A DNA stretch of 32,938 bases from Verrucomicrobia subdivision 6 bacterium (GTDB lineage Bacteria; Verrucomicrobiota; Verrucomicrobiia; Methylacidiphilales; Verrucolacustridaceae): contig CAMCFB010000011.1 in the NCBI GenBank assembly GCA_945874125.1, positions 1-32,938 on the forward strand, read 5' to 3'. Positions within the stretch are counted from its first letter, which is position 1. Every line of letters begins with the position of its first letter. Shown here one piece after another: positions 20,942 through 31,258 of the stretch. The notes below the pieces were generated by a model. The model saw only the letters and a program-made list of their open reading frames with translations, ran no database searches and had not been told where the DNA came from. Both the position numbers and the translations under genes were made by a program.

Positions 20942-22081
20942 TTATCCCCTCTTTTTCGCCGCGTCCAGCAACTCAGCAAACTGACGAAAAAAATATCCCG
21001 CATCGTGTGGCCCCGGCGCTGCCTCGGGATGATACTGGACCGAAAACGCCCCGCCTCCCTTCAGCTGAATACCCTCACACGTCCCATCATTCAGATTCAC
21101 ATGCGTTACTTCGACCGTTCCCTTCGGCAAAGAATCTGGATCGACCGCATATCCATGGTTTTGGCTCGTGATCGAAACTTTGCCCGATCGCAAATCCTTC
21201 ACCGGTTGATTTCCCCCGCGGTGCCCAAATTTTAACTTGTAGGTCTTCCCTCCCAACGCGTGGGCCAACATCTGATGCCCCAGACAGATCCCAAAAATCG
21301 GTTTCTTGCCCACCAGCTCCCGCACCGTTCGATGGACGTAAGTCGGCACCGATGGATCCCCCGGCCCATTCGACAAAAATACACCGTCCACCTTCGCCCC
21401 CAAAATCTCCTCCGCGGTTGCCTTCGCCGGAAAAACGATCGGCTGGATTCCCTCCGCCCGCAATTGCCGCAAAATATTCCTTTTCATTCCGCAATCAATC
21501 GCCGCGACCCTGTGCCGCACCGCCGGCATCGTTTCCCCCTCGCTCCCCAGCCGACCTGGAAAATCATTTCCCTCCGGATCCCACTCAAACGGCTTCGCGC
21601 ACGTCACCTCCGCCACATAATCCTTTCCGCCTAACCCAACCCACTCTCTCGCTCTCTGGACCGCCTCCTCTGGCTTCATCCCCTGATTCGCCAAAACCCC
21701 TTTCATCGCCCCCAACGTACGCAACTTCCGCGTCAAACACCTCGTGTCCACTCCCTCTAAGCCCGGCACCTTATGCCGGCGCAAATACACATCTAAACTT
21801 TCCCGCTCTCTCCAACTGCTGCCTCGGGTCGACAACCGTCGCACCAACAAACCCGAAACCTGGGGCCGATCCGACTCCTCATCCTCCGGATTGATCCCCG
21901 TATTGCCGATCTCAGGGCAGGTCAAAGCCACGATCTGCCCTCGATAACTCGGATCGGTCAGAATCTCCTGATATCCCGTCATCGATGTGTTGAAACATAA
22001 CTCCGCCGCCACCCAGCCCTCGTGACCAAAGCCCCGACCATGCAAAATGGTCCCATCCTCAAATGCCAAAATTCCCTCCAT
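20942..22081 (-). CDS. carA: Carbamoyl-phosphate synthase small (glutaminase) subunit
   Basis: A 379-residue protein of normal length. It releases ammonia from glutamine and passes it to the large subunit CarB for carbamoyl phosphate synthesis, feeding pyrimidines and arginine. The N-terminal half carries NTSMTGYQEILTDPSYRGQIV. The C-terminal class I glutamine amidotransferase domain has the nucleophile Cys266 in FGICLGHQML, with His351 and Glu353 in QYHPEA. It is 12 nt after pyrC. carB is not in this window, so the large subunit must be encoded elsewhere. Confidence 0.97.
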   Translation of the reverse strand: MEGILAFEDGTILHGRGFGHEGWVAAELCFNTSMTGYQEILTDPSYRGQIVALTCPEIGNTGINPEDEESDRPQVSGLLVRRLSTRGSSWRERESLDVYLRRHKVPGLEGVDTRCLTRKLRTLGAMKGVLANQGMKPEEAVQRAREWVGLGGKDYVAEVTCAKPFEWDPEGNDFPGRLGSEGETMPAVRHRVAAIDCGMKRNILRQLRAEGIQPIVFPAKATAEEILGAKVDGVFLSNGPGDPSVPTYVHRTVRELVGKKPIFGICLGHQMLAHALGGKTYKLKFGHRGGNQPVKDLRSGKVSITSQNHGYAVDPDSLPKGTVEVTHVNLNDGTCEGIQLKGGGAFSVQYHPEAAPGPHDAGYFFRQFAELLDAAKKRG

Positions 22082-22093
22082 CGTTGCGAAACG

Positions 22094-23383
22094 CTACGCC
22101 CCCACCGATCGGCCGTCGAGATCGTGCCGAATTTTTCCATCCACGATTGTCAATACCGCTCGCCCCTTCAACTCCCGCTCCTCGAACGGAGTGTTCCTCC
22201 CCAAGCTCTTGAACTCCTCCTTTTTCACCACCCACTTGCGCTCCGGATCGAGCACCGTCACATCGGCGATCGCTCCCACCGCTAAGGTCCCACGACCTAA
22301 CCCAAAATAGGTGGAAGGAAACATACTCATTCTTCCCAAAACCTCCCGCAAAGGCATCAACCCACTATGCACCAGCTCGGTCAAATAAATTCCCAAGGCG
22401 GTCTCTAGCCCCACCACCCCAAAGGGCGCCTGATCAAATTCCACTTCCTTCTCGTAAGTGCAATGGGGCGCATGATCCGTCGCCAAAAACCGAATCGTTC
22501 CGTCGACCACTCCCCTTCGTAGCTCCGCCACATCCGCCGCCGTCCGCAGCGGCGGGTTCATTTTAAACGAGGTGTCATATCCCTCCACCCGATCGTCCGT
22601 CAAAGTCAGATGGTGCGGTGAGGCCTCTCCCTCAATCAAAATCCCCCTCTTTTTTGCCTCCCGTAAAATTCGCACCGATCCGGCCGTACTTATGTGTTGG
22701 CAAACCACTCTTGCCCCCGTCAACTCCGCCAACAACACGTTCCGGGAAACAATCACCTCCTCCGCGATTCCTGGCCAAGCCGGCAGGCCCAGAATCCGCG
22801 ACCACTTCCCCTCATTCACGACTCCGCCGGCCGAAAGCGACCGATCCTCGCAATGATCCAGCACCGGCAGGTCAAACATTCGCGCGTACTCCAACGCTCT
22901 CCTCATCAACTCCGCGCTCTGGATGCAGTGCCCATCATCTGTGATCGCCACCACTCCCGCCTGCCGCAGCGACCCAATCGGAGCCAACTGCTCCCCTTTC
23001 TGTCCCAACGAAATCGTGCCCGTCGGAAAGACATGGGCCACCCCCGTCTCCTTCGCCCTCTGCTTCATCCAAGCGATCGTGTTCGGTCCATCGGCCACTG
23101 GAGATGTATTCGGCATGGCAATGACCGACGTAAAACCACCCGCCACCGCCGCCGCGGTTCCCGTGGCCATCGTCTCTTTCGCCGATTGCCCCGGCTCCCT
23201 TAGATGCACATGCGGGTCGATCAGTCCGGCTGTCACCACCAGCCCCTCGACCTTCACCACCGCCGCACTTTTGCCTGCTTTACCGTCCGCAATCTTGCCG
23301 TCCCGAATCAAAACGTCCCCCTTGGCCTCCCGCCCCGTTGCCGGATCCACCACCAAACCACCCTGTAGAAGAATTTCGTTCAC
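22094..23383 (-). CDS. pyrC: Dihydroorotase (type I, metal-dependent)
   Basis: A 429-residue protein. It cyclises carbamoyl-aspartate to dihydroorotate, the third step of pyrimidine synthesis. Predicted zinc ligands of the type I family are all present: His58 and His60 in DPHVHLREPG, Asp150 in TDDG, His177 in LDHCED, His230 in CQHIST and Asp303 in ATDHAPH. It is therefore expected to be active, not a pyrC-like pseudo-enzyme. It overlaps the end of pyrB by 4 nt (23380-23383). Confidence 0.97.
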   Translation of the reverse strand: MNEILLQGGLVVDPATGREAKGDVLIRDGKIADGKAGKSAAVVKVEGLVVTAGLIDPHVHLREPGQSAKETMATGTAAAVAGGFTSVIAMPNTSPVADGPNTIAWMKQRAKETGVAHVFPTGTISLGQKGEQLAPIGSLRQAGVVAITDDGHCIQSAELMRRALEYARMFDLPVLDHCEDRSLSAGGVVNEGKWSRILGLPAWPGIAEEVIVSRNVLLAELTGARVVCQHISTAGSVRILREAKKRGILIEGEASPHHLTLTDDRVEGYDTSFKMNPPLRTAADVAELRRGVVDGTIRFLATDHAPHCTYEKEVEFDQAPFGVVGLETALGIYLTELVHSGLMPLREVLGRMSMFPSTYFGLGRGTLAVGAIADVTVLDPERKWVVKKEEFKSLGRNTPFEERELKGRAVLTIVDGKIRHDLDGRSVGA

Positions 23384-24324
23384 GACTCACCCCCCAAACC
23401 TTTGCCACCCGAAACCAAGTACAAAACCGCCATTCGCACCGCCAACCCGTTGGTGACCTGATCCAAAATGACCGACTGCGCTCCGTCCGCCAGCTCACTG
23501 GCAATCTCCACCCCCCGATGAATCGGTCCAGGATGCATCAAAAGCACCCCCGGCTTACACCGTTGAAACCGCTGCATGTTCAATCCAAACAAGGTCGCGT
23601 ACTCTCCAATCGAGGGCACCCGTGCCTGCACCTGCCTCTCATGCTGAATTCGTAGTAAATTAATCACGTCCGCCTCCTCCAACGCCCCGTCCAAAGTGTG
23701 CGCCACCTCCACTCCCAACTCCGCAAACTCCTTTGGCAGTAAGGTGGAAGGCCCCACCAACTTCACCTTCGCCCCCAGTTTCGTTAAAGCCCACAGGTTC
23801 GATCGCGCGACCCGGCTATGCACGATGTCCCCAATAATTAAAACTTTCACCCCCTCAATTTTTCCCAGTCGCTCCCGAATGGTGAATGTGTCCAGCAATC
23901 CTTGGGTCGGATGCTCATGCGATCCGTCCCCCGCATTGATCACGGACGCTTTAAGCCTCTGTGCTAAAAAGTGAGCCGCCCCGGCCGACCGATGCCGAAT
24001 CACAATCGTGCCCGCTTGCAAAGCTTCCAAATTCTTGGCCGTGTCCTGCAGGGACTCCCCTTTGCGAATGCTACTCGTTTCCTTGTCTAAAGAGACCACA
24101 TCTGCGCTGAGCCGTATCGCCGCCAACTCAAAAGAGATCCTCGTTCTCGTGCTCGGCTCGATGAACAAATTCACCACCGTCCGCCCCTGCATCGAAGGCA
24201 CCTTCTTAATCGGTCTTCCCAAAATCTCCTTAAATACCGTGGCCGTCGACAACACCTTGCCGATCTCTTCCGCGCTCAGCTCTCGGAGCGAGAGCAGATC
24301 TTTTCTCTGCCACACCCCGCTCAT
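23380..24324 (-). CDS. pyrB: Aspartate carbamoyltransferase catalytic subunit
   Basis: A 314-residue protein from the ATG at 24324 (MSGVWQRKDLL). A longer open frame reaching 24507 lies inside pyrR in another frame and is rejected. It condenses carbamoyl phosphate with aspartate. The carbamoyl phosphate motif STRTR is at residues 58-62 in EPSTRTRISFE; HRSAGAAHFLA, HEHPTQGLLD and HPGPIHRGVE follow. The start overlaps the pyrR stop (ATGA, 24321-24324). No pyrI regulatory gene is present. Control is probably through PyrR on the operon mRNA. Confidence 0.97.
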   Translation of the reverse strand: MSGVWQRKDLLSLRELSAEEIGKVLSTATVFKEILGRPIKKVPSMQGRTVVNLFIEPSTRTRISFELAAIRLSADVVSLDKETSSIRKGESLQDTAKNLEALQAGTIVIRHRSAGAAHFLAQRLKASVINAGDGSHEHPTQGLLDTFTIRERLGKIEGVKVLIIGDIVHSRVARSNLWALTKLGAKVKLVGPSTLLPKEFAELGVEVAHTLDGALEEADVINLLRIQHERQVQARVPSIGEYATLFGLNMQRFQRCKPGVLLMHPGPIHRGVEIASELADGAQSVILDQVTNGLAVRMAVLYLVSGGKGLGGES

Positions 24325-24854
24325 ACTTTTTCCTTCTCCAAGACCACCGCATCTTCTCCATCCATCTCCGCCAGTCTCACCCGCACCCTTTGTTGGGCTG
24401 ATGTGGGCAAATTCTTTCCCACAAAATCGGGTCGGATCGGTAACTCGCGGTGCCCCCGATCCACCAACACCGCCAGCTGAATGATCTTCGGCCGACCCAA
24501 GTCGCATAGCGCATCCATGGCTGCTCGGATGGTTCGACCCGTGTACAGCACATCGTCCACCAGGATGATCGTCCGATCCTTCAGATCAAAAAGCACCTCC
24601 GACCCCTTGGGCACGGGCATGTTACTGGCCAAATCGTCCCGGTGAAAACTGATGTCCAGCGATCCCACCGCTAAAGTTTTGCCCCCCTCAATCTGCTGAA
24701 ACTCCTTCGCCAATCGATGCGCTAAGGGCACACCTCTGGTCTGAATCCCCACCAGCGCGAAATTGCCTTGGGGGTGCTTTTCGGAAAATTCGTGGGCCAT
24801 CCGCCGTACCGCCCGGCGTACACTTTCCCCATCGAGCAAAACTTGATCCGCCAT
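24321..24854 (-). CDS. pyrR: Pyrimidine operon regulator / uracil phosphoribosyltransferase PyrR
   Basis: A 177-residue protein of the usual PyrR length. The PRPP-binding motif TIILVDDVLYTGRT is at about residues 95-108. Upstream are VGIQTRGVPLAHRLA and the SLDISFHRDDL stretch, where PyrR carries nucleotide and RNA-binding residues. In the family, UMP-bound PyrR binds a hairpin in pyr mRNA and lowers expression, while PRPP counteracts it. A matching hairpin lies just upstream of this gene and takes in its SD (24866-24860, AAGGAGG). It is the first gene of pyrR-pyrB-pyrC-carA-FHA. Confidence 0.95.
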   Translation of the reverse strand: MADQVLLDGESVRRAVRRMAHEFSEKHPQGNFALVGIQTRGVPLAHRLAKEFQQIEGGKTLAVGSLDISFHRDDLASNMPVPKGSEVLFDLKDRTIILVDDVLYTGRTIRAAMDALCDLGRPKIIQLAVLVDRGHRELPIRPDFVGKNLPTSAQQRVRVRLAEMDGEDAVVLEKEKV

Positions 24855-24861
24855 TTCCGCC

Positions 24862-24894
24862 TCCTTGTGGAACTCTCTGGTTCCGGTTAAAGGA
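24862..24894 (-). promoter_or_regulatory. PyrR-binding RNA hairpin overlapping the pyrR SD
   Basis: In the minus-strand RNA the upper stem GGAAC/GTTCC (24884-24880 with 24873-24869) closes the hexaloop CAGAGA, which fits the PyrR consensus loop CNGNGA. On the 5' side is TTTAA (24891-24887), the family's conserved internal bulge. The lower stem TCCTT/AAGGA (24894-24890 with 24866-24862) uses the bases of the pyrR SD. The layout resembles the translational-repression type described for mycobacterial pyrR rather than the Bacillus attenuators, since no terminator follows. Confidence 0.8.
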
Positions 24895-24914
24895 CACGAC
24901 CTACGCTAAACAAC

Positions 24915-25157
24915 CTAACAAATATCCTTCTCTTTGGCTATCTCTTTCTCTCTCGTCGCTCTCCAGGCCGAACGGTGATTGACGATCCAATCCAGTAACC
25001 CCTTCTCAAAACCCACATCGTGCCCCGCCTGTTCGCTGAGGTGCCACTTGTGTTTTAAAATCTCTTCTCTCTCTAACAAAAACTCTCGGTACAGCGCTGA
25101 ATTTTTAAAGACCGAATTGGGATCGAGGGAAAAATGGGGGGTACCCTTGGATTCCAT
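24915..25157 (-). CDS. Small unidentified protein, 80 residues
   Basis: I do not recognise the family. The protein is charged and contains YREFLLEREEILKHKWHLSE then AGHDVGFEKGLLDWIVNHRS, which looks like an ordered helical domain with conserved-looking Trp and His. A stop codon directly precedes the ATG (TAGATG) and no SD is visible, so the true start could be internal. It lies between mrp and the pyr operon; the PyrR hairpin begins about 20 nt after its stop. It may be transcribed with the pyr operon or end the mrp unit. Confidence 0.6.
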   Translation of the reverse strand: MESKGTPHFSLDPNSVFKNSALYREFLLEREEILKHKWHLSEQAGHDVGFEKGLLDWIVNHRSAWRATREKEIAKEKDIC

Positions 25158-30376: not shown

Positions 30377-31258
30377 TTAGGAGCGAATCGATTGGGAACG
30401 TCGAAGAAAGAAAATAGCCGCCACCGCCAAACCAGCCAAAAGCAGCTTGTGTGAGGATGGCTCAGGCACCCCCACCGCCGCGATCTGGTGAGGCCCCTCC
30501 GAATAAGAGGACATACGAATAAAGTAACTATCATCCGATTCACGCGAGTTGAAATCAGCGCTCGCCAGCGAGTAACCACTATTTTGCACATATGCTCCAA
30601 GGCCCACCAAGAACCACTCTCCCCCAATTTGCCGAAAAAGAGCACTGCCGGAATCGTAAATGGTCAGGGCCGCCTCGTTGACACCCGAGTTGCTATTGAA
30701 CTGCGTCCTCAGCAGATCGGAGGTGTATCCCGCCACCTGTACCCGCGAAATTGCGCCATCGACAAAGTTGGTCCCCCACCTTTTGGTCGCAGTGCTGCTA
30801 TCCCCCCACGTGACCGGACTTGTCCCGACCAAGGAACTAGGAGCCCGACCCACTCCGTAGCCCACCAAGTACGCCGAACCGCCGTCGCTCGCCGACGAGG
30901 TATTCAAACGGACAGTACCGAGTCCTGGGTCACTCGCCAATCGAACCAACTTCATGTCCGCTGTCCCAATGGAAACAGGAGCGGAGGCGTCGAGTTGGTA
31001 ATCCAAGAAACCTACCTTCACGCTCGTTAAAGGCCCCACATGGCCGGCGGTGAGCACATACCGATTCCCTAAGTAAACTCCCGTGCCAATCGGACCCGAA
31101 CCGCTCCTCATCTGTACCACATTCTCCCAAGGAACACCGTTGCCCGGATTCGTTAAATTCGCATCATTTCCTTGGCTAAAAAAAACGATCGCTTGCGCTG
31201 GTGCCGCGCCCCACCAGACCCCCAGAACGGTTACCACGGAGACAAGGAATACCCTCAC
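30377..31258 (-). CDS. Secreted trypsin-like serine protease with PEP-CTERM tail
   Basis: A 293-residue protein starting with GTG. Residues 1-23 form a signal peptide (MRVFLVSVVTVLGVWWGAAP then AQA). The S1-type triad is recognisable: His73 in LTAGH, Asp101 in ADMKLVRL, Ser203 in YDSGSALF. The C-terminus has VPEPS (264-268), a hydrophobic helix (271-285) and an Arg pair, the PEP-CTERM signal processed by exosortase in bacteria with exopolysaccharide-linked sorting. The usual GDSGGP is altered to YDSGSA, so activity is likely but unproven. No exosortase gene is in the window. It is flanked by an unidentified gene and parB. Confidence 0.85.
   Translation of the reverse strand: MRVFLVSVVTVLGVWWGAAPAQAIVFFSQGNDANLTNPGNGVPWENVVQMRSGSGPIGTGVYLGNRYVLTAGHVGPLTSVKVGFLDYQLDASAPVSIGTADMKLVRLASDPGLGTVRLNTSSASDGGSAYLVGYGVGRAPSSLVGTSPVTWGDSSTATKRWGTNFVDGAISRVQVAGYTSDLLRTQFNSNSGVNEAALTIYDSGSALFRQIGGEWFLVGLGAYVQNSGYSLASADFNSRESDDSYFIRMSSYSEGPHQIAAVGVPEPSSHKLLLAGLAVAAIFFLRRSQSIRS

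Follow-up and report, generated by a model that had tools for sequence, protein, structure and literature searches.

In a Verrucomicrobia subdivision 6 bacterium, the Shine-Dalgarno (SD) sequence of pyrR lies within an RNA hairpin that, judged from its sequence, is very probably (probability about 0.88) a PyrR-binding loop for autogenous translational repression of pyrR-pyrB-pyrC by PyrR-UMP. The hairpin is matched by a covariance model built from loops of other phyla, its stem covaries among related families, and in the Verrucomicrobiota its presence coincides with that of putative RNA-contacting residues in PyrR. We analyzed a 32,938-nt stretch of contig CAMCFB010000011.1, referred to as the window; the features discussed here are collected in Table 1.

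The pyrR Shine-Dalgarno sequence forms one strand of a hairpin

Read 5' to 3' on the minus strand, the site has the order CGU-G-UCCUU-UAACC-GGAAC-[CAGAGA]-GUUCC-AC-AAGGA-G-GCG-GAA-AUG. It combines several features of a PyrR-binding loop: a CNGNGA hexaloop (CAGAGA), UUUAA on the 5' side and a CCUU/AAGG lower stem at fixed spacing (7/6/7, among the two dominant classes). As in loops of the mycobacterial type, the SD of pyrR is inside the loop stem and the start codon (ATG, 24854) follows just downstream.

TABLE 1 Features of the predicted PyrR-binding loop and its surroundings in the window
Feature	Coordinates	Strand	Details
Predicted PyrR-binding loop	24860..24894	minus	5-bp lower stem, 5' UAACC/3' AC internal loop, 5-bp upper stem, hexaloop; SD is the 3' strand; independent covariance-model match and covariation
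Extended hairpin	24858..24898	minus	outer helix CGU/GCG past a G/G mismatch; from the fold, outer pairs kept in the genus
Outer helix	24898-24896 / 24860-24858	minus	CGU with GCG
Lower stem	24894-24890 / 24866-24862	minus	UCCUU with AAGGA
Upper stem	24884-24880 / 24873-24869	minus	GGAAC with GUUCC
Hexaloop	24874..24879	minus	CAGAGA (CNGNGA); genus varies at both N positions only
SD of pyrR, within lower stem	24860..24866	minus	AAGGAGG; sequence and accessibility prediction
pyrR	24321..24854	minus	177 aa; ATG 24854-24852; NCBIfam PRK05205.1-5, 224.8 bits against a cut-off of 138
pyrB	23380..24324	minus	aspartate carbamoyltransferase; start within pyrR stop (ATGA)
pyrC	22094..23383	minus	dihydroorotase; start within pyrB stop (GTGA)
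carA	20942..22081	minus	carbamoyl-phosphate synthase small subunit; 12 nt past pyrC
Gene X	24915..25157	minus	80-aa protein; weak DUF4032 match; stop 20 nt 5' of hairpin

An earlier note on this DNA had described a CAGAGA hexaloop on a 5-bp stem above a TCCTT/AAGGA lower stem whose 3' strand is the pyrR SD itself (AAGGAGG), and the minus strand carries all of these elements. Two details of that description change. The UUUAA motif, which the note took to be a bulge, is there, but its first two U residues pair in the lower stem and so are not bulged; the part left unpaired, 5' UAACC opposite 3' AC, is an asymmetric internal loop and not a simple bulge. The helix is also longer than described, since CGU pairs with GCG beyond a G/G mismatch, which makes the whole SD helical; these three outer pairs are present in all 11 distinct sequences from the genus. 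The 44-nt RNA has a fold energy of −15.4 kcal/mol, equaled by none of 200 shuffles, and the SD core AAGG is predicted to be unpaired approximately 4 to 6% of the time. As context for the SD, 16S-like tails (GGATCACCTCCTTT) are present in the genus.

The hairpin lies between gene X and the pyr genes

The downstream genes had been called correctly in the earlier note as encoding PyrR, PyrB, PyrC, and CarA, and the two 4-nt overlaps that it reported are found at 24324-24321 (pyrR/pyrB) and 23383-23380 (pyrB/pyrC). Relatives of the window PyrR in the PDB include 1A3C, 1NON, and 1UFR. Upstream of the hairpin is gene X, the product of which has the conserved core HKW-SE-GHDIGFEKALLDWIVKHR. This gene is found directly 5' of pyrR in hairpin-bearing and in several hairpin-less genomes of the phylum, and its stop codon lies 9 to 36 nt 5' of nearly every hairpin examined there, a spacing that suggests either an internal-cistron position for pyrR or a pyrR promoter inside gene X. 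A search for sigma-70-like promoters found none in the stretch, a weak negative. Elsewhere in the window (30377-31258, minus strand), an open reading frame (ORF) translates to a secreted-looking protein with a C-terminal PEP-CTERM-type sorting signal (VPEPSS...RR).

A covariance model from other phyla matches the hairpin

To place the hairpin among known loops, we scanned named genomes with the skeleton CCUUUAA/CNGNGAG/AAGGAG and obtained at least 119 loci. Among those listed, a PyrR ORF starts 2 to 16 nt past AAGGAG in 64 (mostly Actinobacteria), and gene X precedes the hairpin only in L114, a Spartobacteria metagenome-assembled genome. At five loci (L052, L108, L123, L079, and L090), it is the SD of a different ORF that this loop masks; these ORFs have lengths of approximately 306 to 400 aa and are PyrB-sized in clostridia, so translational use of the loop may extend beyond pyrR.

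We then used 37 distinct loops from other phyla with the window's spacing (the ungapped 7/7 class) to train a covariance model, leaving out the window and including no loop that was verrucomicrobial by record name. Although knowledge of the finding guided the choice of skeleton, it had no part in the stem between the anchors, and this upper stem covaries strongly among the 37 training loops. The model matches exactly 24860-24894, spanning all 35 positions, with 36.9 bits and an E value of 5.5e-9 for the whole genome; the runner-up has an E value of 1.2. A looser pattern has a single occurrence in the 1.38-Mb genome and none in its control, and 300 Markov copies of the window gave no matches. 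These figures, the recurrence of the hairpin in ten families and the absence of a T-run after it make it exceedingly improbable that the resemblance is due to chance or that the hairpin is of an unrelated kind, for example a gene X terminator; all that speaks for such an origin is the position of the site 3' of that gene.

The earlier note had proposed a search of this leader with the Rfam PyrR family, which returned no match at the gathering score or at E values up to 10. With neither an Rfam match nor a terminator, the site does not fit an attenuator of the Bacillus (RF00515) type. What Rfam did report at E values up to 10 was tRNAs and a meaningless human lncRNA. The failure of Rfam at the window says little, because the SD-overlapping loops tried from Actinobacteria, Chloroflexi, and Meiothermus likewise escape its PyrR model. 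When RF00515 was tried on nine loci, its sole detection was a Bacillota attenuator (L075); the SD-overlapping loops to which it was blind are L033, L041, L099, L086, L005, and L019.

The stem covaries among related families

The hairpin is present in 17 of 17 genus genomes with a recovered pyrR (the window's own genome counted), with the hexaloops CAGAGA, CUGAGA, CUGUGA, CAGUGA, CGGAGA, and CUGCGA. The stem varies too little within the genus for covariation to show there. Related families within the order and class have a rebuilt yet paired upper stem (GGUC/GGCC, GCGUC/GGCGC, GCGAUC/GGUCGC, and others). Across an alignment of 26 sequences, 95.6% of cells pair, compared to 30 to 60% in slid controls; 5 of the 10 pairs are changed on both sides, in 41 such cells, and the covariation score was reached in none of 500 shuffles. 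The earlier note had named a lack of stem covariation among related genomes as grounds for giving up the PyrR element, and the compensatory changes expected of a PyrR-binding loop are found, well clear of both kinds of control.

In a sample of 388 genomes from the phylum, we obtained 10 strong hairpin matches, all adjoining pyrR, under strict filters that may have missed weak hairpins; the hairpin was found in ten families of the phylum. Nine weaker matches to the model (E values of 0.001 to 0.01) lack the UUUAA/CNGNGA/AAGG pattern and were taken as chance.

Hairpin and basic residues of PyrR occur together

A PyrR-family protein is encoded in 198 of the 388 genomes, and the 10 of these with a strong hairpin match are also the ten best PyrR-model matches of the 198, with a gap beneath them. 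Eight alignment columns (R14, R18, H21, E22, R141, K147, N148, and P150) are conserved across phyla where a hairpin accompanies PyrR but have mostly changed in the hairpin-less PyrRs of this phylum. The combination of H21, R/K141, and R/K147, putative RNA contacts, is found in 23 of 23 hairpin-bearing PyrRs and in 0 of 26 hairpin-less verrucomicrobial PyrRs examined. The window PyrR carries R14, R18, H21, R141, and K147. Allowing for the alignment offset, H21, R141, and K147 are H22, R146, and K152 of the Bacillus subtilis PyrR (1A3C), in which mutagenesis reportedly implicated R19, H22, R146, and K152 in RNA binding. The Fisher value for residues and hairpin (1.7e-14) overstates the association, since the rows are related and not phylogenetically independent; on the tree, the hairpin label changes few times, one of the changes marking a well-supported clade without the hairpin within the order to which the window belongs.

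The hairpin-less PyrR homologs of the phylum (e.g., L025-L031 and L181-L199) belong to the same family, and most score above the NCBIfam PyrR cut-off. Unlike the window PyrR, however, they have H21, R141, and K147 replaced by A/E/S, Q/A, and I/Q, respectively, and are therefore probably uracil phosphoribosyltransferase (UPRTase) enzymes only, as far as sequence can tell. The NCBIfam cut-off for "bifunctional pyr operon transcriptional regulator" is passed in 190 genomes of the phylum, nearly all of which have no hairpin, and the cut-off-passing, hairpin-less PyrRs examined are without the basic residues.

These patterns bear on whether PyrR is involved at all. A hairpin that is predicted to be stable without protein, with the stop codon of gene X close by, could constitutively mask the SD and lower pyrR translation, or couple it to gene X. 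Such a role would leave unexplained both the CNGNGA loop and UUUAA motif kept across phyla and the joint absence of the hairpin and the PyrR basic residues, and we consider it very unlikely.

PyrR would act on translation of pyrR

For the preferred reading, a PyrR-binding loop that controls translation, we infer that PyrR binds, that UMP is the signal, that repression follows, that pyrB and pyrC are coupled, and that gene X helps, in the following form. When UMP or UTP is plentiful, nucleotide-bound PyrR would grip and stabilize the CNGNGA hairpin; with the pyrR SD as its 3' strand, ribosomes would be blocked from starting pyrR, and translation of pyrB and pyrC, which start inside the preceding stop codons, would drop as well. 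At low UMP, PyrR would dissociate and the hairpin would be opened, perhaps aided by ribosomes finishing gene X 20 nt upstream. The bare hairpin is predicted to be very stable and to hide the SD without protein, and PyrR alone does not explain the release of expression.

Only 7 nt separate the lower stem from the ATG and 20 nt separate it from the gene X stop, so an antiterminator/terminator pair does not fit, and a terminator scan of the leader found none between the hairpin and pyrR. The earlier note's statement that there is no room for a Bacillus-type antiterminator/terminator is thereby borne out. The sole minus-strand terminator-like site in the stretch is inside pyrR and at chance level. 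PyrR could also bind the hairpin and act mainly on transcription, either through attenuation or through Rho-dependent termination once translation stops. Blocked initiation commonly exposes mRNA to Rho, which is general knowledge in favor of the second route. In Bacillus, PyrR works on transcription (PMC7430163). Because no intrinsic terminator lies between the hairpin and pyrR and the 20 nt upstream are too short for an antiterminator partner, we regard a mainly transcriptional action as unlikely.

At two loci from two other families (L159 and L160), the masked start belongs to an ORF of 37 or 28 codons with a stop that overlaps the pyrR start. Here the direct target of PyrR would be a leader ORF to which pyrR is coupled, a predicted layout that again speaks for control of translation rather than of transcription.

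The genus departs from known loops at the apex

Counted from the loop, the first pair of the upper stem is C-G as in known loops, and the second is A-U throughout the genus. By contrast, the second pair from the loop in 114 listed loops of other genomes is U-G in 92, C-G in 12, U-A in 4, G-C in 3, and A-U in none. In three genus members (L009, L011, and L012), an A/G mismatch closes the CAGAGA loop in place of C-G, as it also does in 6 of the 114 listed loops elsewhere. Much of the genus has AC or UC on the 3' side of the internal loop, where purines are commoner in other loops. For PyrR binding in Bacillus, this apical region is described as important (PMC7430163). These departures may reflect altered affinity or matching changes in the genus PyrR; among the genus-specific PyrR residues listed as possible partners of the A-U apex, none stands out.

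A more elaborate version of translational control can be drawn from these observations, although as a whole we find it doubtful. Across this phylum, the hairpin would guard an internal cistron: ribosomes from gene X, terminating 9 to 36 nt upstream, would melt the stable hairpin and reinitiate at pyrR or, as at L159 and L160, at a short leader ORF overlapping pyrR; PyrR-UMP would clamp the hairpin against them; and the genus PyrR would have coevolved with an A-U apex unmet by other PyrRs.

Discussion

PyrR-dependent translational repression was reportedly described for the Mycobacterium smegmatis pyr operon by Fields and Switzer in 2007 (J Bacteriol 189:6236; cited in PMC6455119 and PMC10672894). 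We take that system to have a PyrR-binding loop that includes the pyrR SD, pyrR as the first pyr gene, and no attenuator. The actinobacterial loci from our pattern scan share the layout of the window, with an SD-overlapping loop directly before pyrR. The predicted system is the mycobacterial arrangement, already known, here in another phylum. It differs from that of M. smegmatis in that the hairpin lies closely behind another gene and in that the top of the upper stem in the window genus is GAAC/GUUC, not GUC/GGC.

With Bacillus pyr attenuation (RF00515), the window shares the binding-loop core, the CNGNGA loop, UUUAA, and the CCUU/AAGG lower stem; the Bacillus core is of the type ARUCCAGAGAGGYU (PMC7430163). 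It differs in having no antiterminator or terminator and no match to the Rfam model.

A 2026 review presents PyrR control as a Gram-positive mechanism, with Gram-negative bacteria more commonly using other means (PMC13328217). The layout for PyrR control is now traced through ten families of Verrucomicrobiota, in a form that the Rfam PyrR model, which overlooks the translational type, does not detect. The phylum also offers a natural experiment, in which relatives without the hairpin are also without the basic residues of PyrR. Together, these patterns provide a sequence test for which proteins annotated as "PyrR" are regulators and which are probably enzymes only.
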